This document shows, piece after piece, positions 34,201-55,862 of a stretch of DNA of 64,000 nucleotides. Position 1 is the stretch's first letter; each line of letters begins with the position of its first letter. The translations under genes were made by a program, and so were the position numbers. The notes below the pieces were generated by a model. The model saw nothing but the letters and a program-made list of their open reading frames with translations. It did not search any database and was not told the origin of the DNA. This DNA is from Leisingera sp. SS27 (lineage in GTDB: Bacteria > Pseudomonadota > Alphaproteobacteria > Rhodobacterales > Rhodobacteraceae), in contig NZ_JAQNCY010000007.1 of the NCBI RefSeq assembly GCF_028368855.1, forward strand, positions 62,001 through 126,000, written 5' to 3'.

Positions 34201-34835
34201 TTCACCGGCTGGTCGGGGCGCCCCTTCTTGAGCAGGCCCAGGAAGGCATCCCAGCTGGCTTTGTCCGCCGCCGCATCACTGTCGTGCATGGTGTAGCGGC
34301 CGGCGGTGTCGATCAGCACCGCGCCCTCGGCGAACCAGAAATCGCAGTTGCGGGTGCCGCCGAACCCCTGCGCCTTGTCCGGCAGAATGTCCTGGCCCGG
34401 GAATTCGATCCCGGCATTGGACAAGGCTGTGGTCTTGCCCGCCGCGGGCGGACCGATAATCACATACCAGGGCAGATCATACAGGTAGTTCCTGCCGCCC
34501 GCCTTCTTCAGTTTCGCCATCGCCTCCTGCAGGCGTTCGCTCAGAACCGTGGCATCGCCCACAGGTTCCTGCAGCAAGCTGTCCTCCAGATCCTGCGCGC
34601 GTTTCCGGCGCCGCCGCCAGCGAAGCCCGTAGTACAGCGCCAGCGCAAACAGAATTGCACCAATCACCGCGGCGCGGAACCAGACCGCAGCAAGCAGGGT
34701 CAGGCCGGTCATCGGGAACCCGAACCAGATGGCAGCAAACAAGGCAAGGATGCCGGTCAAGATCAGCGGAATGCGCATCCAGGGCTTGCGCAGCAGCTGG
34801 ACTGGCAGGCTGAGAAAGGAAAGGAGCCGGAACAT
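31203..34835 (-). CDS. tssM: T6SS membrane core protein TssM (IcmF)
   Basis: 1210 residues: two N-terminal membrane segments (about 22-40 and 43-70), cytoplasmic NTPase with an intact Walker A GPPAAGKT (128-135), a third membrane segment at about 440-460, then the long periplasmic domain. Forms the T6SS membrane complex with TssL. Starts one base after the tssL stop. No tssJ lipoprotein gene, its normal outer-membrane partner, is present in the window. Confidence 0.96.
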   Translation of the reverse strand: MFRLLSFLSLPVQLLRKPWMRIPLILTGILALFAAIWFGFPMTGLTLLAAVWFRAAVIGAILFALALYYGLRWRRRRKRAQDLEDSLLQEPVGDATVLSERLQEAMAKLKKAGGRNYLYDLPWYVIIGPPAAGKTTALSNAGIEFPGQDILPDKAQGFGGTRNCDFWFAEGAVLIDTAGRYTMHDSDAAADKASWDAFLGLLKKGRPDQPVNGVILAFSVEDMMSASPASIAENAATVRARLGEIHETLRIDFPVYVLFTKADLISGFREYFASFSQSRRKSVWGVTFQTKDRGVETYKQAGAEFDQLISRLSDEVIDRMNEEPDGASRIAIFGLPGQMAMLRGNICEFLRVVFEPTRYKTSALLRGFYFTSGTQEGTPVDQVLGEMSRNSGDAGLFQPAFMSGKGKSYFLHDLMKKVIFEERGWVGFDRAAMRRTALLRSTAFAAILLGTAGSMGAFGYSYWQNATLTRNAEHDAVAFFDAARNELSRTVIDGTDPSPVMPHLQDLRDMTTGYGDPERPGFWQGLGLSRHAELSGATHRAYSDGLERMLRPRLVLHLENAIPQLIADEDTAEVYRALKVYLLLGGAGQGNAADNDAAVTSYFEQLWRRQFNAPGQIDERQQLLAHLEALLDLDGDRKPVIGIDPEIVRQAREAIVNLPLAEQAYALIKERAATSGIRDFGLAERLSGQVAQVLETTDGSPLQSVGVPALYTFEGYWGYFLEELTTARTRLREDQWVLGEAAGRVGYETQLAGLEAELHRVYRLEFSAAWKAMFAQIGLARMSADAPQYAALAAASSQVASPLLELVEAVEEETRLSRFYDQLDRLDPAAVAASGGDLGANMGDAVFKRIYSKSGVFQKVALDSFKARAKVQTQAGAAGQAHGEDLQRRQVERISDDFAQWHSLLNGKPGQRPIDLVLAALGDLRENRRQAAVAPTPADEAMLSQTLSALTMNNTALPAPLAQLLNEAESEFRAEAQDAAMSQLNRALNDEVTQFCRDFIAPLYPFGGGRHVSPAVFGQFFGPGGRMDRFYTSYLQPHVVRSPDGLKPAPGSATGQRLSPEILRQFGNAQAIQLAFFASGAPEPEVGMSIVHADSSPSVELAVLSVNGTSVRTQPGSTPAALSWPGQSSGVSVELFPQKRQRQSALSFTDGRWDIVTFLRQGRSKVTGNVVDVRHEIGGRSISYRIEFDSTTVPFLMPELADFSCPVTLE

Positions 34836-34836
34836 T

Positions 34837-36393
34837 CTAGTTTTCTCTCGGAATCATGATTTCGACGCGGCGGTTGCGTGCCCTGCCGTCACGGCTGCTG
34901 TTGTCAGCAATCGGGTCGACTGCGCCCTTGCCCTCGGCCGAAATCCGGCTGGCGTCGGCCAGTGCCGCGCCCAGAACAGTTGCGACAGTTTCCGCCCGGG
35001 CCAGTGAAAGCTGCTCATTGGTCTTGTAGCGCCCGCGCCCCGACGGCGGCACGCTGTCGGTATGGCCCACCACCCGCACCGGGCCGGTTTCCCCGTCCAA
35101 GGCCGCGGCGGCGGCGCCGATCAGCATGCTGATATCGCTGCTCAGATCCGCGGAGCCTGAGGTGAAGCGCAGCGCCCGGCCGACACGGATGAGCACCCAG
35201 TCATTGGTTTGGTCGAGTTCGATCTGGCCGGTTTCCAGCTCGCCCTCCAGCGCGCCAGTCAACCGCTGCATTTGCGTGCTGGGGGGTGGCTCGTACGGGC
35301 GGACAACCGGCTGCGTGCGTTCGATGACGATGCCGGGCTGGCCCTGGTGCAGCGCCAGGATACCGTCACGCACTTCGGCGCTTTGCCGGGTGAGCAGCGT
35401 CGAAAGTGTTGCAAACAGCGCCATCACCATCACAGCGGACACGCTGAGCGCCACCCACAGCGGCAGCTTGCCCTGATTGCGGCGGGTGCCAAGCGGCACC
35501 GCGCTCCAGCGAGGCGAGATATCGTCATCCGGGCGCGGCTGCACCCGGCGCAGGGTTTCGTAGATGGCTGTGCGGATGCGGGCGCTTTCCACCGTGCCGC
35601 TGGGCATGGTGCGGTACTGGCCCTCAAAGCCCAGCGACAGGCAGGTCAGCATCAGCTCCAGCAAGTGAAAGCGCTGGCCGGGCGCCCGCATTGCCTCGTC
35701 CACTTTCTGAAAGAAACCCACCCCGGAGGAGCGGTCGCCGAAGAACCGCGCCGCCATGGAATATTCCTGCCATATGCCGCGGTCGGTGCCGGGCAGGTTC
35801 TGGACGATGTCGTCCGCTGTGGCGGACAGCACGTATTTGGCATCGAGAACGTCCTGCGGCGCAGCATTTGCAGCATGCGCCGTTTTCTCGAAGGCGTCGA
35901 TTTCCCGGACCACATGGTCGATCAGCGGGGCGGCCTGCATGTCCACCAGCCCGGTGCGCAGCCGGCCAAGCAGCACCAGAAGGTCTGCCGCAGCCGCAAT
36001 CAGCGGATTGGAGGATTGCGCAGCGCCGCTGCCTTGCGCCTTCAGCGCATCAGCCAGCGCGATCCGCGGTTGCGCCTGTGGCCGGACCGCCTGGCCCGGC
36101 TGCACGATATCGGGGAAAATCCCTGCGCCGGCAGGCTGCTGGCCCGTTGCGGGCCGGTACTGCGGCTGCATTTGCGGTGGAGCAGGCTGCGGCGGCAGCG
36201 CTCCGCCAAGCCAGGTGTCCTCTGCCGGGGACTGCACCGGAGCAATACGGCCCGGCCCGCCGCCGGCAGGCGGCAGCGGCTGTCCAAACACCGTATTTCC
36301 TGCCGGCGGAGCTGCTGGCGGGCGCGCCGGCGCCGGGCCGGGCACCGGCGGGATCGGCTGTCCGAAAACGGTTTTGTCGTCATCCTCCGCCAT
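34837..36393 (-). CDS. tssL: T6SS protein TssL with C-terminal OmpA domain
   Basis: 518 residues from the ATG overlapping the tssK stop (ATGA). Order: Pro-rich N-terminal tail (1-120) with Thr motifs DDKTVFGQP (T8), GNTVFGQP (T34) and EDTWLGG (T60); cytoplasmic DotU domain (about 130-300); one membrane segment (about 309-330); OmpA-type peptidoglycan-binding domain (about 400-518, VVGHTDSVPPSGRGRYKTN, GRARNRRVEIMI). The OmpA part can anchor the complex to the cell wall. The N-terminal Thr motifs are candidate PpkA sites read by TagH, as reported for TssL in Agrobacterium; this is inference for the present protein. Confidence 0.94.
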   Translation of the reverse strand: MAEDDDKTVFGQPIPPVPGPAPARPPAAPPAGNTVFGQPLPPAGGGPGRIAPVQSPAEDTWLGGALPPQPAPPQMQPQYRPATGQQPAGAGIFPDIVQPGQAVRPQAQPRIALADALKAQGSGAAQSSNPLIAAAADLLVLLGRLRTGLVDMQAAPLIDHVVREIDAFEKTAHAANAAPQDVLDAKYVLSATADDIVQNLPGTDRGIWQEYSMAARFFGDRSSGVGFFQKVDEAMRAPGQRFHLLELMLTCLSLGFEGQYRTMPSGTVESARIRTAIYETLRRVQPRPDDDISPRWSAVPLGTRRNQGKLPLWVALSVSAVMVMALFATLSTLLTRQSAEVRDGILALHQGQPGIVIERTQPVVRPYEPPPSTQMQRLTGALEGELETGQIELDQTNDWVLIRVGRALRFTSGSADLSSDISMLIGAAAAALDGETGPVRVVGHTDSVPPSGRGRYKTNEQLSLARAETVATVLGAALADASRISAEGKGAVDPIADNSSRDGRARNRRVEIMIPREN

Positions 36394-37727
36394 CAGCCGC
36401 CCTCCGGCACCGCCCAAAGCTCAAGCTTCAGGTCCGGCCAGTTGCCCGCAAAGTGCAGCCCCACCGCCGGGGCGGTCGAGAACTCCCGCCACAGGTCCGA
36501 GGACTTGTCGAGCAGGAAATAGACATTGGTCGACACCACCCGGATCTGCCGCGGCGGGTTGGGCAGATGCACCAGGCCGATGCCGGGCAGGTTGTTGCTG
36601 ACAATCTGCTTCATGCTGGTGGAGGGCCCGGCCTTGCACAACTGCGGGAACTGCTGCTGCACCTGGGTCAGGGGCAGGCTGGAGGACACCTCGATAACAA
36701 AGGTTGCCTGGGCAAACAGGTTCCGGTCATTGACCAGCGCCGCATAGGAATTGGCGCGGACCTCGTTCAGCGGCAGGCGCACCGCCCGGCCCACGTCCCG
36801 GGCCAGCAGCTGCTGGATGTCCTGCACCAGGGCGGTGAAACTGTCCTTGCTGTCCTGGTGGCTGTAGCGTTCGTAAGTGCGGGTCCGGCGCGCGCCCTGG
36901 TCGAAGGTTGACAGCTCGCCTGCCAGCGCCAGCAGTTTTTCATAGAGCCTCTCGGGATGCAGATTGGCGAGACCCTGCATGTGCTGCAGAACCGGCAGCT
37001 CGCGGTTCAGCACCATCAGCATGAGGTAATCCGTGGCCTGCATCCCCCCGCCCGAGGACGGGTCGGAAGCATAGCGCGCCAACGTTTCCAGCTTGGCCTC
37101 AATCCAGCCGATGACGCGGCTCAGATAGCCCTCATAGGCGGGATGCACCCGCATCACCAGCGCCACCGGCGGCACGCTGTCGTCCAGGGTCACGATGCCG
37201 TCGCGCATATCGATAATGCGCGCCAGCCGGATGTTCTGGTATCCGGGGCGCGGGGTCTTGCGAAGCACCAGTTCCAGCCGCGGCTGGGCGATTTCGACGA
37301 TATGCTCCGAGCGGCCGGCCGACGCGTTGTTCACCACGGTTTCGGCATTCAGGACGAAACGTGTTGCCGCATTGGCGGCCGCTGGCGACACATCCTGCCC
37401 GCTGACGCTGGCATCCGGCAATGTCAGCCAGACATCCAGCCCCTGGGCCTCATCCTCCGGCACCTCCACGGGCACCGGCAGCGGCGCCGATCCCGGCGCA
37501 TCAAAGGCCATGCCGTCGGGCATAATGCCTGCCACCGCCCGCAGGCCGATCTTGCCTTGCTGCGCCAGATCCCGGTCGAACCGCAGCTCGCTCACGCCCC
37601 AGGGGTAAGGAGTGATGTTGGCAGTGCGTTCACGCAGCTGGTATTCTTGGTAGCGGTCGGCCTGCTGCAGATGGTGCGGTTGAAGAAACAGGCCTTCTTT
37701 CCAGGCCACTTTGCTGAAATTCGACAT
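36393..37727 (-). CDS. tssK: T6SS baseplate protein TssK
   Basis: 444 residues, TssK/ImpJ family (KVAWKEGLFLQPHHLQQADRY at the N-terminus is the family signature). It links the baseplate to the TssL/TssM membrane complex. First clear T6SS gene of the minus-strand operon tssK-tssL-tssM-tagF-pppA-ppkA, all overlapping or separated by at most 4 bases. The autotransporter gene ends 105 bases upstream on the same strand; a GC hairpin at 37755-37767 lies in the gap but its U-tract is weak. Confidence 0.95.
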   Translation of the reverse strand: MSNFSKVAWKEGLFLQPHHLQQADRYQEYQLRERTANITPYPWGVSELRFDRDLAQQGKIGLRAVAGIMPDGMAFDAPGSAPLPVPVEVPEDEAQGLDVWLTLPDASVSGQDVSPAAANAATRFVLNAETVVNNASAGRSEHIVEIAQPRLELVLRKTPRPGYQNIRLARIIDMRDGIVTLDDSVPPVALVMRVHPAYEGYLSRVIGWIEAKLETLARYASDPSSGGGMQATDYLMLMVLNRELPVLQHMQGLANLHPERLYEKLLALAGELSTFDQGARRTRTYERYSHQDSKDSFTALVQDIQQLLARDVGRAVRLPLNEVRANSYAALVNDRNLFAQATFVIEVSSSLPLTQVQQQFPQLCKAGPSTSMKQIVSNNLPGIGLVHLPNPPRQIRVVSTNVYFLLDKSSDLWREFSTAPAVGLHFAGNWPDLKLELWAVPEGG

Positions 37728-37832
37728 GTGTATTCAATCGTTTCCATATCAAACGGGCCGGTGGCCCCCGGTAAGAATGACGCAACTTTTAAGGCCTGCG
37801 GACGGATCGTCAACACGGTCCGGTAGTGCGCC

Positions 37833-40800
37833 CTAAAACTGCAAGCGGATCTGCGCAGTCACCCCCCAGCTGTCAAGCCTGTCACTGAACCTTGTGTCGG
37901 CGCGGAACGATGCGTCCAGCTGACGCCCCGGCAGCGCGCTGCCGGGCTGCAGAATCTTGGTGTAATTCAGGCCAAGGCTGAGTTCGCCATAGGTGCCAAG
38001 ATTGCTGCTCGTGCTGCTCAGCGCGGTTCCCGCACGTTCGCCGGTATCCGGGTCATAGAGGAAAAACTGCGACTCCACGTCGGATCCGAAGTCGTGGTAA
38101 ACCGTTGCCGTGGCAAAATAGTTGAGCGCGGACGTGCCGGTCAGGCCGATCTTGCTCTTGGACAGGGTCAGGCCCGCAAAGCCCACCCGGCTCTCGATGT
38201 CTTCGATCTCCAGCTCGCCATTGTCAAAATACAGCGTGTCGGTCTCGATATTGGAAAATGAGAACCCCAGCGAGGGCACAAGGCGCAGGTCCTTGGCTTC
38301 GTTCAAGGGAATCGAAAGCCCGGCTGAGGCGCCGATGGTCAGGCCGCGGCTGTCGTAGGATTGATCCTGAACACCAAAGCTCAGATCCTCTGCCGTAAGG
38401 GTCGCGTCCCCGGACAGTGTCCGCACCGTATCCAAAGCTGCCGCATTCACCGTATTTTCAAGATCGAACGCGGTTTTATCCGCCCTGATCTGCACATCTG
38501 CAAACAGCACCCGGCCGCTGTCGCCCAAACTGCGGGAAGCCGCCATATAAGCGCTGCCGTACCGCTGGGAGAAACTGCTGCGGTTTGTGCTGGTGCGTAC
38601 ATTCGGGTTCAGCAGTCCGGTATTGGCATCGAAATAGTAGACCGGCTGCGTCGTGGTGCCGCCGTTATAGCCCGCGATACCGCCAAAGCTCAGGTCCCAC
38701 CCGTTGAAATAGCCGTTGAAACAGGAATAATCCGCGCCGATCTGAAACCCGTAGTAATCCGCCGACAGCTCGCTGCTATAGCTGCCAAGTGCGGTTTCTG
38801 ATGTCCCGGTGGCGGTAGCCTGACCGCCTGTGGCCCGGCTCCAGGTACCCAGCCCGCAAACGTCGTCTCCCGGGACGGCAAGGCCTGTCACAAAGGGGCT
38901 CGTCGGGCGGTTGACCACACTGCCCATCAGCGACTGTGTCAGCGCAAGGCCGGTTGCAAGCCCGCCGACCGCAGGGTTGGCCGCGCCCTGCAGCTGATAG
39001 GCGCCTGCACTGCTATTGTCGACAAGGGCATATACTGCTGCCCCGGTATTAGGCAAACCGTTGACCGTGACGCCTTGCAGCGCGCCGCTGCCGTACCTCA
39101 GGACATCGACGCTGCCGGTCAAACGGTTGGTCAGATCCTCTGTGTTACTAAAATTGAAGGTAGCCTGGCCGGAAAGGTTGCCGGACACTTCGACGACATC
39201 GCTTTGAATCACACCGTCTGCGAACACCGCATCCATTTCGAACGTGCCGTTCAGCACGGCATCTCCCGAGACTCTGAACACATCGTCCCCCGCCCCGTCA
39301 GCAAGGTCGATGACCGCCCCCGTCTGATGGGTCAACTGGCCGGCGCCAGTGACGGTGCCTTCCGCGATGATCGTCCCGCTGTTCACCACCGCTGCATGGA
39401 CCGTGGCGCCGTCTGACAGGCCCAGCGAGGAGGTGTTGGTCAGTGTGCCGGACGCCAGTACACCGCTGCCGGACACCTGCAGCGAAGCGCCGCTGACATT
39501 CATCCTGGCATTCGTGGCGGTGGCCTGTGCCGTGCTGCTGCCGCTGATTGCGAGCGCACCAAATGACAAGCTGCCCTCGATGATCATGCGCCCGCTGCTG
39601 GACAGCGTTCCAGTGACTTCCGACGTGCCATCCACGGTCAGGGTTCCACTGTTGTTCAAGGACCCCGTGACATCGCCTGCCAGCGTCGCGGTACCGTTAT
39701 TGGTGACATCACCGGTGACAGTTCCGTCCAGATCAAGCGTTGCACCAGAACTGTTGACCACATCTCCGGTCACATTGCCGCCTGCCGCTATTTCGGCAGT
39801 GCCAGCATTTTCCAGTCCCATTTCCAGCCTTGCACTGTTGCCAACCGTCAAACTGCCGTTTGAAGAGTTCTCAAAAACCGTTCCCCCTGACCCGGTGAGC
39901 GTGGCTCCGAAAATCTCTGCCCGGCCGTCATTTGCCACCGTCCCGCCGCCATCCAAAGTGGTGGTTCCGCCAGTAATGGCCAGGGTGCCGCTGCCGGAAT
40001 TGGAAAAGCTCTCCAGACCCGTCAGGTCACCGGAGACTGTGACAACCGCACTGTCCTGAACGATCAGGCTGCCGTCCAGCGTGCCAGACAGATCGGCTGT
40101 TGCACTGCCGCTGTTTGTCAGGTCTCCTGAAATCATCCCTGTGGATACCAAAGTTCCGGCATTGGAGACGCCGCCGTTGATGGTGCTATTGTTCGTCAGC
40201 ATGCCGCCGGAAATGGCCACGCTGTCCCCGATAGTGCCGTCATTGGTGACCGTGCCACCCGAGACCGCCGCAGTGCCGCTGACTGTCCCGCTGTTGGTGA
40301 AGCTGCCGTCTGTCTGGTCCAGCGTGCCCAAGGTGCCTGCGTTCGAGGCGGTGCCCGCGTTGCTCAATGCTGCCACCGAGCCGCCGCTGGAGACGGTCAG
40401 ACCGCCGCCGGAGCTGTTCTGCAGGTCCGTCACAGTGCCGCCGCTCACCGTGGTGCTGCCGCTGTTTGTCAGGCGAGATACGCTGCCGCCGGTGACGCTC
40501 ACCGTGCCGCCATTGTCCACCGTCCCGGCACTGCCGCTGGTGGTCAGATCCGCACCCGCCGCAACCGTCACATCGCCGCTCAGCGTTCCGGAGCTGTCCA
40601 GCGAACCGCCCGACAGGGTCACAGCCCCGTCCATCGACCCGCTGTTGGTCACACTGCCGCCCGAGATCGACGCCGCGCCGCTCACCGTGCCGGTGTTGGT
40701 GAAGCTGCCGCCTGTCTGGTCCAAGGTTCCCACGGTGCCAGCATTCGACACCGTGCCAGCGGTGCTCAGCGCTGTAACCGTGCCGCCGCTGCCAACCGTC

Positions 40801-43800
40801 AGGCTGCCAAAGGCGGAATTCTCAAGGTCCGCCACCGTGCCGCCGGTAACCGAAGCCGTATTGGTGTTGGTCAGGTTTGAAACTGTACCGCCAGTGACGT
40901 CCACAACACCTGAATTTTGAACCTGCCCGGCGGTACCGCTGGTAGTCAGCGACGCAGCCCCGCCGATAAGAACATTACCAGACATCACACCAGTATTGGT
41001 CAGAGTGCCTCCCGACGATGTGAGCGGACCGCTGATGGTGCCCGAGTTGTCCAGAGTTCCGCCTGTTGCGATGACTGTACCGGCTACCGTGCCGCTGTTG
41101 CCGATGCTCCCGCCGGACTGAGTCAGCGTATCAACCGTGCCGCTATTCGTAATGCCTCCCCCAGATTGAATCAGAGTGCCAATGGCGCCTGCATTACTTA
41201 CAGTGCTGGTTCCAGAGTTGTTTACCTCCGTCACAGCAGCACCGCTTGCCACTGTCAGGCTGCTGCTCCCGGTATTTCTGATCTCCGCAACCGTGCCGCC
41301 AGTCACAGCCACGGTCCCATTGTTTTGAACCGCCTCCGCCGTACCGCTGGTGGTGAGCGCAGCGCTCCCGGACACAGACACCTGGCCTGACAGCGTCCCG
41401 CTGTTGTCCATGGAACTGTTGGACAAGTCCACAGCCCCGCTGACCGTGCCGCTGTTGGTGAAGCTGCCACCGGTCTGGTCCAGCGTTCCCACGGTTCCCG
41501 CGTTCGAGGCAGTGCCCGCGTTGCTCAATGCTGTCACCGAGCCGCCGCTGGCAATCGTCAGATCGCCGGTGGCGCTGTTCTCAAGGTCTGCAACCGCCCC
41601 GCCGCTCACCGTCGCACTGCCGCTGTTGGTCAGCTCTGCTACGCTGCCGCCGGTGACGCTGACCGTGCCGCCATTATCCACCGTCCCGGCACTGCCGCTG
41701 GTAGTCAGATCCGCACCCGCCGCAACCGTCACATCGCCGCTCAGCGTGCCGGAGCTGTCCAGCGAACCACCCGACAGGGTCACAGCCCCGTCCATCGACC
41801 CGCTGTTGGTCACGGTGCCGCCTGAGATCGACGCTGCGCCGCTGACCGTACCGGTATTGGTGAAGCTGCCGCCGGTCTGGTCCAGCGTGCCCACGGTGCC
41901 CGCGTTCGACGCGATTCCCGCGTTGCTCAGTGATGTCACCGAGCCGCCGCTGGCAATCGTCAGATCGCCGGTGGCGCTGTTTTCCAGGTCCGCCACCGTA
42001 CCGCCCGTGACCGTGGCATTGCCGCTGTTGGTCAGTTCGGCGACGCTGCCGCCGGTGACAGCCACGGTGCCGCCATTATCCACCGTCCCGGCTATGCCGC
42101 TGGTGGTCAGTTCCGCGCCCGCCGCAACCGTCACATCGCCGCTCAGCGTACCCGAGCTGCTGGCCGTTCCCGCCAGAACAGAGGTTGTGCCGCTGACGAT
42201 ACCGGCATTGGTAAAGCTGCCCGATGTCTCCACATTGTCGGAAATCGTGCCGCTGGCGGTGTTCTCCAGCACCCCGTCCGCCGCATTGCTGATCGTGCCG
42301 TGGCTGGTGCTGATGGTGCCCGCGTTGGTGATTTCCCCGTAGGCACCGTTGTCCAGCTGCGCCACCGACAGGCTCGCGCCATCCCCCACCGTGAGGGTGG
42401 CCGCCGCCCCCGCCGAGCCGCTGTTGGTCAGAACCGTGCCGCTGCCCTCCAGCTGGTCGCCCGCGCCGATGCTGAGGCTGCCGCCTGCGGTATTGGTGAA
42501 GCTGTCGCCGCTGCCGTCGCCCAGGGTCAGCGTGTCGCTGCCGCCGTCCTGGGTCGAGATCGCGCCTGCGTTGGTCAGCCCCTCGCCGCTGTTGTCGCTG
42601 TCGGCGTTCAGCACGCCGGAGCCGGTGAACGTGATGCTGCCGCTGGCGGTGTTGCTGATTGCGCCGGCGTCTTCCACGCTGCCGCCATCGCCGACGGTGA
42701 TGCTGCCGCTGTTGGTCAGCGTGTTGCCGGTGCCCGTAAGCGACGCCCCTGCCCCCAGGGTCAGAGACGCCCCGCTTGCGTTGCTGATCGTCTCCGCCTC
42801 CAGCGACCCACCGTCCCCGACAGAAACTACGCTGCTGTTGCTCAACGCGCCGACATTCTCCAGCGCCACACCATTTGCCACCTGCAGGCTGCCGCCATTG
42901 ACCGATACAGAATGGCCGCCAGCGTTTACATTGCCAGAGATCTGCGCAACTGATCCGCTCTCCGCACGCAAATCGCCAGTCAGATCGGTATTGAGGGAAA
43001 GATCGCCATGGTTGGTCACATTTCCTGTCAGCGTCACACCGTCCGTCACTACTGAACTGCTGCTCAGCACGATCTCATCCGCATCGATTTGCAGGTCCGC
43101 TGTGCTACCGTCCAGAGTGCCGGTATTGGTGAAGCTGCTGCCGCCCGCAACACTCAAGGTCACAGTATCGCTGCCGCTGGAGGCAATTGTGCCGTTGTTC
43201 ACGACATTCCCGTTCACCAAAGTGTCCGCAGCGATTTCGAAGGTGGCGCTGTTGCCGCTTTCGACCGTCACATCGCCGCCAAATCCGCCTCCATCGGCAA
43301 CCAGAGTTCCCCCCGAGACGGTCACCGCTCCGTCCATCGACCCGCTGTTGGTCACGGTGCCGCCTGAGATTGACGCTGCGCCGCTGACCGTGCCGGTGTT
43401 GGTGAAGCTGCCGCCGGTCTGGTCCAGCGTGCCCACGGTGCCCGCGTTCGACGCGATTCCCGCGTTGCTCAATGCTGTCACCGAGCCGCCGCTGGCAATT
43501 GTCAGATCGCCGGTGGCGCTGTTTTCCAGGTCCGCCACCGTACCGCCCGTGACCGTGGCAGTACCGCTGTTGGTCAGTTCGGCGACGCTGCCGCCGGTGA
43601 CAGCCACGGTGCCGCCATTATCCACCGTCCCGGCTATGCCGCTGGTGGTCAGTTCCGCGCCCGCCGCAACCGTCACATCGCCGCTCAGCGTACCCGAGCT
43701 GCTGGCCGTTCCCGCCAGAACAGAGGTTGTGCCGCTTACGATACCGGCATTGGTAAAGCTGCCCGATGTCTCCACATTGTCGGAAATCGTGCCGCTGGCG

Positions 43801-45488
43801 GTGTTCTCCAGCACCCCGTCCGCCGCATTGCTGATCGTGCCGTGGCTGGTGCTGATGGTGCCCGCGTTGGTGATTTCCCCGTAGGCGCCATTGTCCAGCT
43901 GCGCCACCGACAGGCTCGCGCCATCCCCCACCGTGAGGGTGGCCGCCGCCCCCGCCGTGCCGCTGTTGGTCAGCACCGTGCCGCTGCCCTCCAGCTGGTC
44001 GCCCGCGCCGATGCTGAGGCTGCCGCCTGCGGTATTGGTGAAGCTGTCGCCGCTGCCGTCGCCCAGGGTCAGCGTGTCGCTGCCGCCGTCCTGGGTCGAG
44101 ATCGCGCCTGCGTTGGTCAACCCCTCGCCGCTGTTGTCGCTGTCGGCGTTCAGCACCCCGGAGCCGGTGAACGTGATGCTGCCGCTGGCGGTGTTGCTGA
44201 TCGCGCCGGCGTCTTCCACGCTGCCGCCATCGCCGACGATGATGCTGCCGCTGTTGGTCAGCGTGTTGCCGGTGCCTGTAAGCGATGCCCCCGCCCCCAG
44301 GGTCAGAGACGCCCCGCTTGCGTTGCTGATCGTCTCCGCTTCCAGCGACCCACCGTCCCCGACAGAAACTACGCCGCTGTTGCTGAATCTGCCGGTGCCG
44401 CCGGCGGAACTGGACACCGTCACCGCGGATCCGGCTTCCAGAACCAAGCCGCCGTTACCGGACGCATTGGTCAGCCCGCCGACAGTGGACCCGTCTGTGC
44501 TGTCAAACGTCAACAACGCATCCGGTGAGACCGATACGGACTGCGAGGCCAGGCCGCCGGTGACTGTCAGACTGCCAGACTGGACCTCCGTTGCACCGGT
44601 ATAGGAGTTTTCCGCCGCCAAACTGACGTCCCCCCCTGCGACGGTCAGCCCGCCAGTGCCGGAGATTTCGCCATCAACCGAGGAGGTTCCGGCGGTCAGC
44701 GTCAGGCTGCCGGGGCTGAGCGCCACCGTGCCTGACCCATTCAGGCGGGCAATGCTCTCATCACCGCCCAGTGAAACAGCGCCCTCGTTGCTAAGTTCAG
44801 TTCCTGGCGCCAGCGCGCCGCCATCGGTGGCGAGGCTTGCTCCGGACGCCACGCTCACTGTTTCCGATGCCAGACTGCCGGTCACAGTCAGGCTGCCGGA
44901 TTGCACCGTGGTGCTGCCGGTGTAGGTATTGCTGCCTGAAAGCGTAACATCCCCGTCGCCAACGGCGTCCACCGACAGGGCCCCGCTGCCGTCCTCAATG
45001 ACGCCCGAGAAACCCGCTTCGGCGCCGCTTGCCGCGTTAATGGAAAGGGCCGCGGTACTGGTGCTGGTGATGCCGGCCGCTGCGGAGAAATCCGCATCCA
45101 GTGTCAGCTCCGCACTGCCGTCCAGTTGCAGCACCATATCATCAGCCAGCACATCGCCGGCAAAACTGCCGCCGTAGGTCAGGCCGGCACCCGGTCCGTC
45201 CAGCACCAGGGTACCACCGGACAGCTGGGTCTCGGACTGGATGTCTACCGTGTTGGCCGTGTAGCTGGTGATGGAGCCGTCGCTGTTCCTGAGCAAGATG
45301 GCTTCCGGCCCGCTACCGCCGGAAATTTCAGCCGCCGCAGAGCTGGAATCGGGCACTGTGCCTGTGTCCCAGTTGCCGTCTTCCCCCCAATTTGCAGTTC
45401 CATTGCCATTGGTCCAAGACTGCGACGCAGCAGGGCAAGCCATCATCCCTGCATAGATTGCAGTGGTTCCAAGCAGTAGAATGCGCAT
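37833..45488 (-). CDS. Giant autotransporter (type V secretion), repeat-rich passenger
   Basis: 2551 residues. A signal peptide (about 1-23, ending PAASQ) is followed by an autotransporter-associated repeat region with N-x-Y-T-G motifs (SNTYTGSTTVQSG, ENSYTGATEVQSG), then about 1900 residues of short Gly/Ser/Thr/Asn repeats (TNSGTV-like, beta-helix) and a C-terminal 12-strand barrel of about 290 residues ending in RLQF with a terminal Phe. Predicted surface adhesin or self-associating protein. It sits between the two halves of the T6SS locus, upstream of tssK on the same strand. The passenger contains a near-identical internal duplication (see repeats). Cargo or ligand cannot be inferred; no protease or lipase motif seen. 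Confidence 0.9.
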   Translation of the reverse strand: MRILLLGTTAIYAGMMACPAASQSWTNGNGTANWGEDGNWDTGTVPDSSSAAAEISGGSGPEAILLRNSDGSITSYTANTVDIQSETQLSGGTLVLDGPGAGLTYGGSFAGDVLADDMVLQLDGSAELTLDADFSAAAGITSTSTAALSINAASGAEAGFSGVIEDGSGALSVDAVGDGDVTLSGSNTYTGSTTVQSGSLTVTGSLASETVSVASGASLATDGGALAPGTELSNEGAVSLGGDESIARLNGSGTVALSPGSLTLTAGTSSVDGEISGTGGLTVAGGDVSLAAENSYTGATEVQSGSLTVTGGLASQSVSVSPDALLTFDSTDGSTVGGLTNASGNGGLVLEAGSAVTVSSSAGGTGRFSNSGVVSVGDGGSLEAETISNASGASLTLGAGASLTGTGNTLTNSGSIIVGDGGSVEDAGAISNTASGSITFTGSGVLNADSDNSGEGLTNAGAISTQDGGSDTLTLGDGSGDSFTNTAGGSLSIGAGDQLEGSGTVLTNSGTAGAAATLTVGDGASLSVAQLDNGAYGEITNAGTISTSHGTISNAADGVLENTASGTISDNVETSGSFTNAGIVSGTTSVLAGTASSSGTLSGDVTVAAGAELTTSGIAGTVDNGGTVAVTGGSVAELTNSGTATVTGGTVADLENSATGDLTIASGGSVTALSNAGIASNAGTVGTLDQTGGSFTNTGTVSGAASISGGTVTNSGSMDGAVTVSGGTLVADGGGFGGDVTVESGNSATFEIAADTLVNGNVVNNGTIASSGSDTVTLSVAGGSSFTNTGTLDGSTADLQIDADEIVLSSSSVVTDGVTLTGNVTNHGDLSLNTDLTGDLRAESGSVAQISGNVNAGGHSVSVNGGSLQVANGVALENVGALSNSSVVSVGDGGSLEAETISNASGASLTLGAGASLTGTGNTLTNSGSITVGDGGSVEDAGAISNTASGSITFTGSGVLNADSDNSGEGLTNAGAISTQDGGSDTLTLGDGSGDSFTNTAGGSLSIGAGDQLEGSGTVLTNSGSAGAAATLTVGDGASLSVAQLDNGAYGEITNAGTISTSHGTISNAADGVLENTASGTISDNVETSGSFTNAGIVSGTTSVLAGTASSSGTLSGDVTVAAGAELTTSGIAGTVDNGGTVAVTGGSVAELTNSGNATVTGGTVADLENSATGDLTIASGGSVTSLSNAGIASNAGTVGTLDQTGGSFTNTGTVSGAASISGGTVTNSGSMDGAVTLSGGSLDSSGTLSGDVTVAAGADLTTSGSAGTVDNGGTVSVTGGSVAELTNSGSATVSGGAVADLENSATGDLTIASGGSVTALSNAGTASNAGTVGTLDQTGGSFTNSGTVSGAVDLSNSSMDNSGTLSGQVSVSGSAALTTSGTAEAVQNNGTVAVTGGTVAEIRNTGSSSLTVASGAAVTEVNNSGTSTVSNAGAIGTLIQSGGGITNSGTVDTLTQSGGSIGNSGTVAGTVIATGGTLDNSGTISGPLTSSGGTLTNTGVMSGNVLIGGAASLTTSGTAGQVQNSGVVDVTGGTVSNLTNTNTASVTGGTVADLENSAFGSLTVGSGGTVTALSTAGTVSNAGTVGTLDQTGGSFTNTGTVSGAASISGGSVTNSGSMDGAVTLSGGSLDSSGTLSGDVTVAAGADLTTSGSAGTVDNGGTVSVTGGSVSRLTNSGSTTVSGGTVTDLQNSSGGGLTVSSGGSVAALSNAGTASNAGTLGTLDQTDGSFTNSGTVSGTAAVSGGTVTNDGTIGDSVAISGGMLTNNSTINGGVSNAGTLVSTGMISGDLTNSGSATADLSGTLDGSLIVQDSAVVTVSGDLTGLESFSNSGSGTLAITGGTTTLDGGGTVANDGRAEIFGATLTGSGGTVFENSSNGSLTVGNSARLEMGLENAGTAEIAAGGNVTGDVVNSSGATLDLDGTVTGDVTNNGTATLAGDVTGSLNNSGTLTVDGTSEVTGTLSSSGRMIIEGSLSFGALAISGSSTAQATATNARMNVSGASLQVSGSGVLASGTLTNTSSLGLSDGATVHAAVVNSGTIIAEGTVTGAGQLTHQTGAVIDLADGAGDDVFRVSGDAVLNGTFEMDAVFADGVIQSDVVEVSGNLSGQATFNFSNTEDLTNRLTGSVDVLRYGSGALQGVTVNGLPNTGAAVYALVDNSSAGAYQLQGAANPAVGGLATGLALTQSLMGSVVNRPTSPFVTGLAVPGDDVCGLGTWSRATGGQATATGTSETALGSYSSELSADYYGFQIGADYSCFNGYFNGWDLSFGGIAGYNGGTTTQPVYYFDANTGLLNPNVRTSTNRSSFSQRYGSAYMAASRSLGDSGRVLFADVQIRADKTAFDLENTVNAAALDTVRTLSGDATLTAEDLSFGVQDQSYDSRGLTIGASAGLSIPLNEAKDLRLVPSLGFSFSNIETDTLYFDNGELEIEDIESRVGFAGLTLSKSKIGLTGTSALNYFATATVYHDFGSDVESQFFLYDPDTGERAGTALSSTSSNLGTYGELSLGLNYTKILQPGSALPGRQLDASFRADTRFSDRLDSWGVTAQIRLQF
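41779..42844 (-). repeat. Intragenic direct repeat, copy 2 (C-terminal side)
   Basis: About 1.07 kb nearly identical to 43321-44386 at a constant offset of 1542 bases, with no indel seen between the aligned ends. Encodes about residues 882-1236 of the autotransporter. Differences are scattered single substitutions, e.g. one Thr/Asn and one Ala/Ser change. Confidence 0.85.
43321..44386 (-). repeat. Intragenic direct repeat, copy 1 (N-terminal side)
   Basis: Partner of 41779-42844, encoding about residues 368-722 of the autotransporter. Both copies run from the VVSVGDGGSLEAETISNASG block to the TNSGSMDGAVT block. About 476 bases of unlike repeat sequence separate the copies. Confidence 0.85.
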
Positions 45489-46017
45489 GTTTGAATACCG
45501 TTTTAGGATAAAATTTCAATCAAAGGTGGCAAGCGGAAAGCTTCAGCAAATGCGCGCAAAATGCAATTTAAACATGAGAAGTCAACTGGACACGGCGGGG
45601 AGATTTACAAAATATTCACCCTTCCACACGCTGAAGCTGATCGATATGGTTGCCGCAGAATCTGCACAACCATCTGTGATAAAACATCTATTTTAAAGCC
45701 ATCTCAAAGAACAGATCTGCCAGAGAGGACGCGTCTTGACGAAAAGGGCTTGGCAGAGCGCAATCTAAAGGCGTTCATGAAATCCCAGAACCGGTCAGGA
45801 TCAACCCGAAAATCAACAGGAGAAAGCAGCGCCAACGGCGGCCCGCAAGGGTGACATCGGATCAGGATACGGCTGCCATTTTCCGCCTTCCCCGGCCACA
45901 GGCCGCCCGAAAGATGTGCGCTTCGGCGGCTGACGCCGCTGCCTCAGCCACGCCGCGGCATGTTCCTGCAGACGCAAGCGCCGCCGGAAGGCCGAAACAT
46001 TTGGATGACCAGACACA
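45489..46017. other. Divergent intergenic region between autotransporter and DUF6931 gene
   Basis: 529 bases with no credible gene. It is less GC-rich than the flanking DNA in its first 300 bases, as expected for a region holding two divergent promoters (autotransporter/tssK side and tagH/tssA side). I found no convincing operator or terminator. Short open frames on both strands lack ribosome binding sites. Confidence 0.5.
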
Positions 46018-46647
46018 ATGACCTTGAACAGCAATGAAACAACGCTCCCGGCAGAGCTGCCATTCAACGGCGGCGATGACGGGGAAAAGACGCAGCCGCC
46101 AATATCCGCACTGCGGTTCGACACTCCTTGCGCCCTATACCAAGGTATGCCTCAACTCAGCCGGCTGATCCAGAACCGGCCTCAGGAACATGAGGACGGG
46201 CTCACCTTTCTGATGCGGCTGCGGGCCTCAACCACACCTGAGGATGCGGTGACTTTCACGGCATTTGCCGCGCAGCCGAAAATGGCGGTTTGGTGGGGCT
46301 ATGAATGCATGCGGCTGGCGGCGGACCTCATCAGCGAGGACGACCGGCGCATGATGGAGCTGGTAGCAACCTGGACAACATACCCGGATGATGAGAACCG
46401 GTACCGGGCCGCCAGAATGGCGCTGTACGCTCCGGTGCGCAGCCCCGCGGTGTTCCTGGGGCTTGCGGTTGCCTGGTCCGGCGGCGCCATTGCCCCGAAC
46501 GATCCCGCTACGGTTCCGGAACACCGCGCGCCGCGGGCAGTGAATTCCGCGGTGCTGTCCTGCCTGAGCAAGGCCGCCCTGTCGGACCGGCCAGTGCGGC
46601 TGGCACGTTTCATCGATTTGGCCGCGCCTCTGTTCCGCACCTACTAA
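46018..46647 (+). CDS. DUF6931-like T6SS-linked protein
   Basis: 209 residues. The central part (FLMRLRASTTPEDAVTFTAF, AVWWGYECMRLAADLISEDD, FLGLAVAWSGGAIAPNDP) matches my memory of the DUF6931 family, a family of unknown function found near FHA genes of T6SS loci. No signal peptide or membrane segment; soluble alpha-helical protein expected. First gene of the plus-strand T6SS operon, 48 bases before tagH. No strong ribosome binding site. Confidence 0.75.
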   Translation: MTLNSNETTLPAELPFNGGDDGEKTQPPISALRFDTPCALYQGMPQLSRLIQNRPQEHEDGLTFLMRLRASTTPEDAVTFTAFAAQPKMAVWWGYECMRLAADLISEDDRRMMELVATWTTYPDDENRYRAARMALYAPVRSPAVFLGLAVAWSGGAIAPNDPATVPEHRAPRAVNSAVLSCLSKAALSDRPVRLARFIDLAAPLFRTY

Positions 46648-46695: not shown

Positions 46696-47949
46696 ATGGC
46701 CATGATGCTGACATTGAGACTGGAAAACTTCGACCTGCTGGAAAATGGCGGTCCGGTCCGGATCACCCTGGACGGCCATGGCGCCAGTGCCGGCCGCAAC
46801 AGGTCGATGGATTGGGTGCTGCCCGACGCAACCCGGCATGTCTCCGGCCATCATTTTGACATCAGTTACCGCGATGGCGGCTATTGGCTGACGGACGTGT
46901 CGACCAACGGCACATTTCTTCAAGGCCAGCCTCACCGCCTGCAAGGCCCTGTGCAATTGCGCGGCGGCGAGCGGCTGATCGCCGGCCATTATGTCATTGC
47001 CGTGGAAGCCGGCGCCACATCCGCCGCTGCGCAGCCGCAGGCAGGCGAAGAGGCCGACCCCTGGGATTTGGGGGTACTGGCAGGCGCCCCGGTGAATCCG
47101 CTGCCGCACCGGACAGCCGGCTCCAGAGCCTTTGACGATGCAGCGCAACAGTTCCTGCAGTTTGCGCCGCCGGCGCCCGGCCCGGCTCATGCGCCGCAGG
47201 CCGCCGGGCAGCCGGCAGCCGTTCCGGACGGCTATTCTCCGGTCGCGCCGGTCCCCATGCCATCCCCGGGGGCGCCGGCGCCCGCACCGCCGCTTGCCGC
47301 GCCCGCACCGCTGCCACAGCCCGTTCCCACGGGCGCCCCCGCCGCCGCGCCCGCCGCGGCACCCGGCCCGGACATTCTGCGCGCCTTTTGCGAGGGGGCC
47401 GGACTGGATCCCGGCCTCGCGCAGAACGCCGGCCCGGAACACCTGGCCCGCTCATTGGGGCAGGCGCTGCGCGGTTCAGCCGAAGAAATCATGCGGATGC
47501 TTCAGGACCGGGCCAGCGTCAAACAGTTCACCAAGGGCGGCGAGCGCACCATGCGCAATGCCCACGGCAACAATCCCCTGAAGTTTCTTCCGGATACAAA
47601 CGAGGCGCTGGATGCAATGTTCCTGAACCCGCGCGAAGGCTTCATGGAAGGCCCGGAGAGCTTTGCGGCTGCCCTTGCGGATCTCCGCAGCCACCAGCAG
47701 GCTGTGTTTGCAGCCCTGCAGCCAGCGCTTGCTGCCGTTTTGCAGGGCCTCTCGCCAGAAGAGATCGAAGCTGCCGCCGGCGGCTCCCATCTGCTGGGCG
47801 GCAGCCGCCGCGGCAAGCTGTGGGAGAGCTATGTGGACCGCTGGGACGAGAAGGCCGCGGAGGCCGAACACGGGATGCTGGACGTCTTTCTGAAAGCCTT
47901 TGCGCAGGCCTATCACGATGCTGTCCAGCAAAATGGGAAATTCGACTGA
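46696..47949 (+). CDS. tagH: T6SS FHA-domain protein TagH (Fha)
   Basis: 417 residues. N-terminal FHA domain (about 1-105) with the phosphothreonine-binding residues in SAGRNRSMDWVLPD, HVSGHHFD and STNGTFL; an Ala/Pro-rich linker (about 110-225); and the C-terminal TagH domain (about 230-417, ending KAFAQAYHDAVQQNGKFD). FHA binds phosphorylated T6SS partners made by PpkA, here most likely TssL. The kinase and phosphatase are in the divergent operon. Confidence 0.92.
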   Translation: MAMMLTLRLENFDLLENGGPVRITLDGHGASAGRNRSMDWVLPDATRHVSGHHFDISYRDGGYWLTDVSTNGTFLQGQPHRLQGPVQLRGGERLIAGHYVIAVEAGATSAAAQPQAGEEADPWDLGVLAGAPVNPLPHRTAGSRAFDDAAQQFLQFAPPAPGPAHAPQAAGQPAAVPDGYSPVAPVPMPSPGAPAPAPPLAAPAPLPQPVPTGAPAAAPAAAPGPDILRAFCEGAGLDPGLAQNAGPEHLARSLGQALRGSAEEIMRMLQDRASVKQFTKGGERTMRNAHGNNPLKFLPDTNEALDAMFLNPREGFMEGPESFAAALADLRSHQQAVFAALQPALAAVLQGLSPEEIEAAAGGSHLLGGSRRGKLWESYVDRWDEKAAEAEHGMLDVFLKAFAQAYHDAVQQNGKFD

Positions 47950-48043
47950 ACTGTCACCCTTGACGACATGTTAAAGTTGATTAAGTTCAGCGCAGATTTG
48001 AACAAGAAAATAACTTCAGGTTGATTTTGGACAGGATTGATTG

Positions 48044-49396
48044 ATGCACAGCAGCGCAATTGCCGCGCCCCTGTCCGATAGCGCCCCCTGCGGGCCGGAC
48101 CTGAACGCCAGCTTTGACCCGGAGTACGAGGAATACTATTTCGGCGCGGTCGGGCGCCTGCCCGGCTTCTACATGCAGCCCGGTGTCGAGCGCCCGGACG
48201 GCAGCCGTTCCCCGGACCGGATTTTCGACCCCAAGGATGTTGACCACCGCGCGGAGAAGCGGGCGCTGGACGCGCTTTTGGCGCGAAGCCGGGATCTGCG
48301 GCTGCTGGTGCTGCAAGCGCAATGGGATGCGCTGGCCGGGCGCCGCAGCGCGCTGGCCGGCACGATCGAAACCATCGCCACCCTGCTGGAGCAGTACCCT
48401 GCGGAGGCGCATCCGGCACTGGATGACGGCGGCTCGGAACGCCGGGATGCGATCAATGATCTGAACCAGCCCGTGACAATGGTGCAGCCGCTGATGTTCA
48501 TGGGGCTGGCAGGCACCACCGAAGTCACCCTGCGCAAAATCCGCGCCTCCAGCGGCAGCGCCGCACCGCTGCAGCATGAAATCGATCTGGAGCTCAAACC
48601 GCTTCTGGACACCCTGGCCGCGCCCGCCAATGCCAGCAAGGTCAGCGCCTGCCACCAGGATTTCACTCGCCTTTCCAACGCGCTGACCCGGATTGAATTT
48701 TCCTGCAAAAACAATGAAGAAAGGCCGTTCACTCCCAGCTTCGACCAGTTGCGCGCGGTGATCTCCGAGATTCTGCAAACACTCGCCGAGGCCCGCCCGG
48801 AACTGAAGGCCGCGGAGGCTGACCCCCCTCCGCCAACAGAGACCGCAGCGGAAGAGCCGGCCAAGCCCGCCCTGCAGCCGCCGCCCGTGCTGGCGGCACC
48901 TGAGCAAGCGCCGCCGCCAAGCGCAATCGTCAGCCATCTCCACGCAAGGCGCACACTTGAGGCCTGTGAACTCTACTACCGCAAGGCCGAGCCCTCTTCC
49001 GCAGCCTTGCTGCTGGTCACTCAAGCGCGCCTGCTGATCGGCAAGCCGCTGGTGGAGGCGCTGCGTGCTTTGCTGCCGGCCCAGGCCGACACCGCCGTTG
49101 TGGATTTCGGTGCGCCGAGCGGGTTTCTGCTGGGTGCCGGACGGCTCGAGGAGCTGAGCAACGCTCTGCCCGAAGGCGCCGGCACGGTGCCGGAGCTGCC
49201 CCAGGACCCCGGTCCGGAAACCAGAATCTCAACCGCGGCCCAGGCGGCCCAGGCAATCCGATCTGTCGAGGAGTTTTTCCGCCGCAAGGAACGGTCCAGC
49301 CCGGTGCCGGTCCTGCTGCAGCGGGCGCAAAGTTACTTGGACAAGGACTTTCAATCACTGATTGAAGAACTTATACCGCAAGCAAAAACATCTTGA
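48044..49396 (+). CDS. tssA: T6SS protein TssA (ImpA family)
   Basis: 450 residues with the ImpA N-terminal domain (APCGPDLNASFDPEYEEYYF ... about residues 10-110), a variable middle with a Pro-rich segment (about 255-290) and a C-terminal part ending in FFRRKERSSPVPVLLQRAQ, the usual short TssA C-terminal motif. Coordinates sheath-tube polymerisation. ATG 48044 preferred over the in-frame TTG just before it. Confidence 0.9.
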   Translation: MHSSAIAAPLSDSAPCGPDLNASFDPEYEEYYFGAVGRLPGFYMQPGVERPDGSRSPDRIFDPKDVDHRAEKRALDALLARSRDLRLLVLQAQWDALAGRRSALAGTIETIATLLEQYPAEAHPALDDGGSERRDAINDLNQPVTMVQPLMFMGLAGTTEVTLRKIRASSGSAAPLQHEIDLELKPLLDTLAAPANASKVSACHQDFTRLSNALTRIEFSCKNNEERPFTPSFDQLRAVISEILQTLAEARPELKAAEADPPPPTETAAEEPAKPALQPPPVLAAPEQAPPPSAIVSHLHARRTLEACELYYRKAEPSSAALLLVTQARLLIGKPLVEALRALLPAQADTAVVDFGAPSGFLLGAGRLEELSNALPEGAGTVPELPQDPGPETRISTAAQAAQAIRSVEEFFRRKERSSPVPVLLQRAQSYLDKDFQSLIEELIPQAKTS

Positions 49397-49420
49397 AGTA
49401 GTAAAATAGACATTTGATCC

Positions 49421-49484
49421 GATCGAAGGCCCCGCCCCGTTATTGGCATTCCAGCGTCAGCTGAAAGCGCGGGCCCCTTCGATC
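49421..49484. other. Long stem-loop between tssA and tssB
   Basis: GATCGAAGG (49421-49429) pairs with CCTTCGATC (49476-49484); after a small internal loop CCCGC pairs with GCGGG, closing a loop of about 30 bases. No T-run follows. It lies 24 bases before the tssB ATG and could attenuate, process or stabilise mRNA ahead of the highly expressed sheath genes. Confidence 0.5.
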
Positions 49485-49507
49485 AGCACGTAACGGGAGT
49501 AGCACTC

Positions 49508-50029
49508 ATGGCCTCAGATTCAGGCTCCAGCTTTATCAAACGCAACCGCCCTCCGCGCGTCCAGATCCAGTACGAAGACCCGTTCGACAGCGAGCAGATG
49601 ATTGAACTGCCCTTTGTCATGGGGGTGATGTCGGATCTGTCGGGCAACAATCCGGGGGTCGAGAAGGACGCGGTCGAGGAGCGCGCCTTTGCCGATGTGA
49701 CCAAGGACACCATGGATGACTACATGGCGTCGATCCAGCCCGGCATGACCTTCATGGCGGAAAACCGGCTGGGCGGCGGCGGCAACGACAAGATCGGCAT
49801 CGAGCTCAAGTTCGAAAACATGGGTGACCTGGAACCGGCGGCCATCGCCCGCCAGGTGCCTGCGTTGAAAAAGTTGCTGGAGGCCCGCGAACAGCTGGCA
49901 AACCTGCAGCGCTACATGGCCTCCAAGCCCAAGGCGCAGGACCACCTCAGGAAGCTGCTCGAGGATCCTGAGCTGATGGCAGCGCTGGCGGAACGCGCAG
50001 CACAAGACGAAACCGGCGAAGACGCCTGA
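49508..50029 (+). CDS. tssB: T6SS contractile sheath small subunit TssB
   Basis: 173 residues, VipA/ImpB family (SFIKRNRPPRVQIQYE near the N-terminus, then ELPFVMGVMSDLSG). Co-assembles with TssC into the contractile sheath that ClpV recycles. tssC follows after 36 bases. Confidence 0.96.
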   Translation: MASDSGSSFIKRNRPPRVQIQYEDPFDSEQMIELPFVMGVMSDLSGNNPGVEKDAVEERAFADVTKDTMDDYMASIQPGMTFMAENRLGGGGNDKIGIELKFENMGDLEPAAIARQVPALKKLLEAREQLANLQRYMASKPKAQDHLRKLLEDPELMAALAERAAQDETGEDA

Positions 50030-50065
50030 ACGCCGCTTGGGCGATAGACGGGAACGGTGATTACC

Positions 50066-51559: not shown

Positions 51560-51608
51560 TTCGTTTCCGCTATTTGGAAGCGATGTTTAACGCCTCAAGG
51601 AGTTATTC

Positions 51609-52106: not shown

Positions 52107-52138
52107 GCCCGGACCAGACCGGTCCCAAACAAAGGATC

Positions 52139-52160: not shown

Positions 52161-52232
52161 AATTCAGCTGGCGGCCTGCCTCCCCTTGCGGCCGCCGGCG
52201 TCTTGCAATGTTTCCAGATTTCAGGTGCAGCC

Positions 52233-55830: not shown

Positions 55831-55862
55831 TCTGCAGCCGCCCGTATTTGAGGCAGACCGAG

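Follow-up and report, generated by a model that had tools for sequence, protein, structure and literature searches.

A giant autotransporter gene in a T6SS locus

The stretch of DNA analysed here, hereafter the window, is a 64,000-nucleotide segment of the 4.8 Mb genome of Leisingera sp. SS27 (G000:C28:62001-126000). At 37833-45488, on the minus strand, it carries a giant gene for a classical (type Va) autotransporter, which lies inside a type VI secretion system (T6SS) locus and heads the minus-strand order autotransporter-tssK-tssL-tssM-tagF-pppA-ppkA; DUF6931, fha, tssA, tssB, tssC, hcp, tssE, tssF, tssG and clpV run divergently on the plus strand. The assignment is based on the open frame, a structural model, fold matches in the PDB and the retention of the gene beside tssK in relatives. 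The frame is open for 2551 codons from its ATG, and the encoded protein begins MRILLLGTTAIYAGMMACPAASQSW and ends in RLQF.

The first 60 residues of the autotransporter contain a single hydrophobic segment (residues 3-21, from hydropathy), which was read by eye as a putative signal sequence of about residues 1-20 (45429-45488, minus strand). The passenger follows (about residues 21-2171; 38976-45428, minus strand) and is rich in glycine (18.8%), serine (15.2%) and threonine (14.3%), as counted over about residues 23-2171. It contains a 300-nt repeat in five copies, and in two of the four intervals between copies the spacing is 402 nt, or 134 codons. The model described below covers the last part of this region, where it gives a β-solenoid, and the passenger as a whole is probably of this fold.

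Searches with Pfam and NCBIfam found no autotransporter domain in the window protein, its own barrel included, and the original prediction of an autotransporter with signal peptide, repeat passenger and C-terminal barrel therefore needed a test. The autotransporter β-domain family PF03797 matches 10 of 28 aligned barrels of the family (best 3.4e-17), the window barrel not being among the ten. Residues 2034-2551 were modelled with AlphaFold2 from 66 sequences, at a mean predicted local distance difference test score (pLDDT) of 90.5 and a predicted template modelling score of 0.84. The model comprises the end of a β-solenoid, a helix at residues 2172-2192 and strands from residue 2211 to residue 2550. 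We take the 14 strand elements of at least 8 residues to be the 12 strands of the barrel and a hairpin outside it. A Foldseek search of the PDB ranked autotransporters highest, namely EspP (1.5e-27), EstA, AIDA-I, Hbp and BrkA, with NalP lower. The 12-stranded C-terminal barrel, on this reading of the model, together with the pore helix and the aromatic C-terminal phenylalanine, places the protein in type Va, and the prediction of an autotransporter is thereby upheld. The barrel spans residues 2211-2551 (37836-38858, minus strand), as judged from alignment, model and fold matches; by the model it probably sits in the outer membrane, with the passenger displayed on the cell surface.

In common with AIDA-I, EspP, Hbp, EstA and BrkA the protein has a signal-like N-terminus, solenoid, pore helix and barrel; however, it is only 13-15% identical to type Va autotransporters in structural alignments, and it differs from them in two invariant barrel cysteines, a conserved loop and the location of its gene inside a T6SS operon. 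Apart from one cysteine in the signal sequence, Cys2211 and Cys2256 are the only cysteines of the protein, and both are invariant in 66 of 66 aligned rows. In the model Cys2211 (38858-38856) starts barrel strand 1 and Cys2256 (38723-38721) lies near the end of strand 2, and a disulfide between them is likely. The loop, NRPTSPFV (residues 2193-2200; 38889-38912, minus strand), connects the pore helix to the first barrel strand and is predicted to be periplasmic, since we take autotransporter topology to place it at the periplasmic mouth. Its N, R and P, the S of its second S/T position and its V are invariant in the same 66 rows, in a region of low pLDDT. The NRP[ST]SPFV-type pattern is nearly private to this family, as 103 of the 115 stretches that it matched in genome_contigs are relatives.

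The surrounding genes bear out the original view that the two halves of a T6SS flank the autotransporter, by families plus gene order, and its position upstream of tssK on the same strand, across a 105-base gap with a weak hairpin, is likewise as described. On the minus strand are tssK (36393-37727; PF05936, E 6e-132), tssL with a C-terminal OmpA domain (34837-36417; PF09850, PF00691), tssM (31203-34835; PF14331, PF06761 and a weak PF06744), tagF (30524-31198; PF09867), the PP2C phosphatase gene pppA (29752-30543; PF00481/PF13672) and the Ser/Thr kinase gene ppkA (27677-29755; PF00069), whose product has one hydrophobic segment by hydropathy (residues 423-441) and a C-terminal domain beyond it. 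A divergent intergenic region (45489-46017) separates the autotransporter gene from the plus-strand half, which consists of the DUF6931 gene (46018-46647; PF22011), fha for the T6SS FHA protein (46696-47949; PF20232, PF00498) and the run tssA to clpV (48041-58508; PF06812/PF05638/PF04965 for tssA/hcp/tssE). PF05943 (TssC) matches at G000:C28:112267-113178, which is window 50267-51178; tssB, tssF, tssG and clpV were named from sequence and gene order only. The host genome encodes a second TssK, 33% identical to that of the window. In the main T6SS of the host (L001, G000:C7) fha stands immediately before tssK, with no tssJ gene between them.

Conservation beside T6SS genes

The linkage was examined in two partly overlapping sets of genomes. 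The first comprises 80 named loci, the best 80 of 103 confirmed relatives found through one motif in genome_contigs, so that the most divergent are under-sampled; they include Leisingera, Tritonibacter, Sulfitobacter, Roseivivax, Paracoccus, Tabrizicola, Celeribacter, Tateyamaria, Jannaschia and others. Up to 6 kb downstream of the barrel was taken for each, several loci having less. The second is a sample of the window's family with 394 genomes from 393 genera, nearly one per genus. Within it the TssK type of the window is set apart by identity (48-100%, versus 36% or less for others).

Within the genus, window-type TssK occurs in five of 21 genomes, and in all five (the window and four others) the autotransporter is beside it. 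Among the 80 named loci, the first T6SS-type gene after the barrel is tssK in 62, pppA in eight, an FHA gene in five, DUF6931 in two, clpV in one, and two loci have none. Thus a T6SS gene comes first in 70 of the 80, and pppA-ppkA follows in eight more. The autotransporter-tssK gap has a median length of 118 bp in these 62 loci and is at most 250 bp in 59 of them; in L134, L146 and L172 other genes intervene and tssK is 1.4-3.9 kb away. Moreover, all 18 autotransporter-tssK operons followed further (L206-L223) continue tssL-tssM-tagF-pppA-ppkA. With the window this makes 19 of the 22 genomes with the pairing, the downstream part of G186, G367 and G387 falling outside the count. The premise of the original prediction that autotransporters and T6SS are normally encoded apart does not hold for this autotransporter family, and the synteny with tssK that it proposed to check is kept.

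In the family sample 32 genomes have the barrel, 30 a window-type TssK and 101 a TssK of any type. The barrel is accompanied by window-type TssK in 23 of the 394 (Fisher p 5e-24, kinship uncorrected) and by a TssK of whatever type in 30 of its 32 genomes (Fisher p 2e-17, likewise uncorrected), while only two of the 293 genomes without TssK have the barrel. The linkage is thus near-exclusive. In 22 of the 32 the autotransporter gene precedes tssK in the same orientation, within ~330 bp in 21 and at ~1.1 kb in G207. It precedes pppA-ppkA in five (G046, G151, G195, G410 and G283), points away from an adjacent tssK in G101, and stands beside fha, DUF6931 and tssA in G259. No T6SS-type neighbour was found in the stretch examined for the remaining three (G076, G253 and G311). 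In many of these loci the DUF6931 gene adjoins fha; in G283 it is placed between the autotransporter gene and pppA. A single contig of G259 (C26) carries the autotransporter, the tssA-clpV half, a tssK cluster of the main type and a separate tssL-tssM-tagF-pppA-ppkA block. A search for the autotransporter in 337 genomes of the class, whose family membership is listed in part, gave two matches at E <= 1e-10, both inside the window's family.

A chance insertion, which the original prediction had named as the alternative, is ruled out, because the autotransporter stands beside tssK in all five genus genomes with this T6SS type and in relatives, by the counts in both the 80 loci and the 394 genomes. 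Its position beside T6SS genes or the control kinase in nearly every relative examined within the Rhodobacter/Roseobacter group makes the protein probably a contact or sensing arm of the T6SS and not a stray gene.

The same locus bears on two published draft clusters. Cluster 2 of Leisingera ANG-M7 and JC1 is described as smaller, possibly degenerate and without membrane-complex genes (PMC9515649). The ANG-M7 contig NZ_JWLI01000025.1 (L107) has the autotransporter barrel, tssK, tssL and tssM, and the autotransporter alignment reaches base 11,248 of 11,250 at the contig end; in JC1 (L109) a contig of 4,883 bases, NZ_LYUZ01000157.1, has the autotransporter and tssK. In the window this locus is intact, and the most likely explanation of the apparent degeneration is therefore that those assemblies break inside the repetitive autotransporter gene; the comparison covered this side of the break.

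The original prediction further proposed that the autotransporter and the T6SS could share expression, taken here as read-through into tssK. The 105-bp gap between them (37728-37832, minus strand) holds a weak five-pair stem at 37767-37755, which is terminator-like in a scan of a region that is not enriched in such sites (8, with 6.5 expected), and no run of four T was found in it. It also holds a conserved TTGAC at 37813-37809. This word is present in 40 of 60 autotransporter-tssK gaps, as against a mean of 5.5 and a maximum of 15 in 200 mononucleotide shuffles, the gap set including near-copies; 36 of the 40 have a copy 67-105 bp ahead of the tssK start. TTGAC is also found in 27 of 59 copies of a stretch inside tssK, which is conserved coding DNA. 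A stricter pattern, with an AT-rich word at the expected distance, occurs in eight of 60 gaps, in 0.3 on average after shuffling and in none of the 59 stretches inside tssK. The low share of gaps with this fuller pattern speaks against a promoter, as does a sigma-70 scan, which flagged none in the window gap on the gene's strand, TTGAC box included. In addition, a crude scan of the gap in 59 relatives finds a hairpin followed by a run of T in 17, four of which (L135, L161, L179 and L180) have one of -22 kcal/mol or stronger. The frequent TTGAC and these hairpins make plain co-transcription doubtful, and we lean towards tssK having a promoter of its own; partial read-through is possible. Upstream of the autotransporter gene itself, a TTGAC at 45585-45581 (minus strand), 97 bp ahead of the start, is kept in a sister species, and the promoter scan picks a different minus-strand site at 45532-45505.

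The sister species (G019, L026) also shows how the passenger varies. Its autotransporter gene is longer by 134 codons, the 402-nt repeat period, in an alignment otherwise without gaps. TssK is identical to that of the window (444/444), TssL is 97.7% identical and the barrel end 97-99%, with passenger stretches down to 79%. Such a variable passenger beside an invariant machine would fit a surface that binds partners.

The pppA-ppkA pair and the tssJ slot

Two features of the locus were overlooked in the original prediction, namely the link of the autotransporter to pppA-ppkA and the slot before tssK that tssJ can occupy. In eight of the 80 named loci the autotransporter gene is followed by pppA-ppkA with no tss genes between, and two of the five family-sample genomes with this arrangement are the same as two of these eight loci. 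In four of the eight (Roseivivax marinus, R. sediminis and the metagenome-derived L174 and L175) no TssK or TssC match was found, although some of these drafts may miss genes. A TssK is present in the remaining four; it is of the window type in L139 and of the main type in the three others. The retention of the pair in genomes without TssK or TssC matches indicates that the kinase and phosphatase are the most persistent partners of the autotransporter.

In all five family-sample genomes with the arrangement, the autotransporter-linked PppA is 50-58% identical to that of the window, whereas the PppA of the resident T6SS is 36-41% identical. In a PppA tree, from which the long row L181 of odd composition was not used, the rows from these modules are scattered among PppAs of T6SS operons; the best tree requires five changes of label, and strong branches force two of them. 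The Roseivivax rows group with G183/G298/G349/G281 (support 92/93), the Paracoccus and metagenome-assembled set with G404 (84/81), G195/G046/Pseudorhodobacter with G266/G292/G401/G141 (91/79), and G283 with G259 (94/96). Most simply, the intervening tss genes would have been lost or moved more than once while autotransporter, phosphatase and kinase stayed together. The PpkA proteins have a hydrophobic segment with a domain beyond it; the segment is single in four of five tested and L174 has a second.

The slot before tssK has a history of its own. TssJ (PF12790) was found in 18 of the 394 genomes and the autotransporter in 32, with no genome having both; the exclusion has p 0.0012 among the 101 TssK genomes, kinship uncorrected. 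No match to the TssJ model was found in the host genome or in any of the 21 genus genomes, and Roseobacter T6SS clusters without tssJ have been published (PMC9515649). In G024 the TssJ gene lies directly before a window-type tssK, and the TssK of this genome is sister to the whole autotransporter clade (support 100/99, midpoint root). The tree holds 29 of the 30 window-type rows (the fragment G167 being out), 17 other TssJ-bearing genomes and three main-type sequences of the genus; most of the 101 TssK genomes lie outside it, and the program warned of long branches. The tssJ gene in the G024 slot and the sister position of its TssK suggest that the slot probably changed from tssJ to the autotransporter on the way to the autotransporter clade. 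TssJ and the autotransporter would be alike as outer-membrane proteins encoded in this slot; they differ in fold and size, the autotransporter being by the model a barrel protein and not a SciN-family lipoprotein (PF12790).

Three window-type loci without the autotransporter, G292, G395 and G167, are at contig ends and were counted as uninformative. In G266 and G048 other genes, with neither an autotransporter nor a TssJ match, are upstream of tssK, and G179 likewise has neither. In the last of these (L102:1829-3928) a gene that looks by eye vgrG-like takes the place of the autotransporter gene, with tssK on one side and DUF6931 on the other.

Proposed role of the autotransporter

The strongest statement that these data allow is that the autotransporter, on the evidence of gene context, belongs with T6SS loci and with PppA/PpkA as a dedicated partner. 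Our preferred reading, to which we give a probability of roughly 0.55, is that it is a partner of this T6SS lineage and not a guest in it, and a probable contact adhesin tied to PppA/PpkA. The barrel would sit in the outer membrane and display a very long, repeat-built passenger. The passenger would most likely touch or hold neighbouring cells, into which the T6SS would then fire, and its production or activity would probably be tied to the PppA/PpkA/FHA phospho-switch of the same locus. The three gene kinds of the PpkA/PppA/Fha threonine phosphorylation pathway are indeed those found in this locus.

Contact is considered the likeliest role because of the architecture and because of a precedent in Vibrio fischeri, where TasL, a giant surface protein of a T6SS locus, gives the cell contact needed for T6SS killing (PMC9040878). 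TasL is a predicted lipoprotein, whereas the protein described here is an autotransporter; the likeness is in proposed function, and no homology is claimed. By analogy with TasL, adhesion coupled to killing, as the original prediction had it, is a reasonable inference. If a large bacterial group keeps a giant autotransporter as a constant part of its T6SS operon, it would have a second, unrelated solution to the problem of contact. The means by which bacteria with a T6SS locate, hold and recognise their targets ahead of firing are for the most part unsettled, and TasL is one case that has been tested. Elsewhere, the autotransporter BimA is encoded near a T6SS locus, beside T6SS-5 of Burkholderia; BimA is a trimeric, actin-polymerising protein of a pathogen. 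No description of an autotransporter as a fixed partner of a T6SS, or of PpkA/PppA/Fha, was found in the open-access literature, subscription papers and preprints being outside the search.

Several observations weigh against the preferred reading. The autotransporter is not essential to a window-type T6SS, since G266, G048 and G179 have such a system without it. Conversely, L119 (the same genome as G311) has the autotransporter without TssK, TssC or any T6SS neighbour, and in L124 it is located away from the T6SS; these are the two named loci with no T6SS-type gene after the barrel. Pfam and NCBIfam recognised no function or binding domain in the passenger, the only match being a sub-threshold one to bactofilin in Pfam. 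Positive selection on the passenger was looked for and is not seen, the ratio of non-synonymous to synonymous substitution rates against the sister species being 0.14 for the whole autotransporter gene, compared with 0.07 for tssL, 0.11 for fha and 0.08 for DUF6931.

The linkage could also be that of an independent adhesin inherited as a block with the T6SS genes and sharing no function with them, and separate promoters for the autotransporter gene and tssK, to which the TTGAC upstream of the former and that in the gap may point, would suit this. Yet many genera retain the linkage, at several different T6SS gene borders and even where the barrel is as little as 37% identical to that of the window, and the barrel is rare among genomes without TssK; joint inheritance alone is improbable. 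More is to be said for the autotransporter as an outer-membrane sensor of PpkA/PppA, in which the passenger or barrel would respond to contact or damage by switching the T6SS. The signal would pass from the NRPTSPFV loop across the periplasm to the C-terminal domain of PpkA, with another target where the T6SS is missing. The pairing with pppA-ppkA, including the four genomes without TssK or TssC matches, the distinct PppA of the modules and their scatter in the tree, the PpkA domain beyond the hydrophobic segment and the invariant loop on the periplasmic side are all consistent with such an input. However, the autotransporter and PpkA are linked by gene context only, the loop may serve folding or packing alone, the kinase could regulate the output of the autotransporter instead of listening to it, and FHA and DUF6931 are not always beside the module; draft genomes may moreover miss T6SS genes, and half of the module genomes do have a TssK. 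We hold this to be an unlikely possibility, though if the kinase link is true the autotransporter would be the outer-membrane input of the T6SS phospho-switch.

The tssJ slot raises the further idea of a structural role, in which the barrel would take over from the lost lipoprotein as the outer-membrane anchor of the TssL/TssM membrane complex. The position of the G024 gene, the exclusion of TssJ and autotransporter and the lack of a TssJ match throughout the genus agree with it. There is also a possible precedent in TsmK of an Acinetobacter T6SS, which is reported to stabilise the membrane complex and to compensate for missing TssJ (PMC10564176); TsmK and the autotransporter are each a lineage-specific envelope protein of a TssJ-less T6SS, although their folds differ. 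If the autotransporter stood in for TssJ, it should be present wherever TssJ is absent, but 53 of the 101 TssK genomes have neither, the main T6SS of the host lacks tssJ as well, and the three clade members without the autotransporter also lack a TssJ match. In addition, the autotransporter accompanies pppA-ppkA even where neither TssK nor TssC is matched. TssJ replacement was accordingly lowered as a main reading, and we regard it as very improbable. A broader scheme would make autotransporter, PppA and PpkA a transmembrane signalling unit of their own, in which the surface solenoid senses contact and drives the kinase and phosphatase through the periplasm; Rhodobacterales T6SS loci would carry the unit as a trigger, some genomes would keep it after T6SS loss, and the autotransporter would have replaced TssJ in its clade. 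Taken whole, this is speculative and slightly less likely than the sensor role alone.

Beyond clpV, two genes at 58511-59302 and 59302-59682 on the plus strand both encode proteins with hydrophobic segments, in an arrangement that resembles an effector-immunity pair; for the first, Pfam gave nothing and NCBIfam only matches below threshold. No Pfam match was found for 59688-61469 or 61484-62914, both on the minus strand. In eight loci that carry the label Paracoccus (L143, L157, L158, L164, L166, L170, L171 and L177), homologues of the former lie upstream of the autotransporter gene, which suggests that these two genes may also be part of the T6SS locus.

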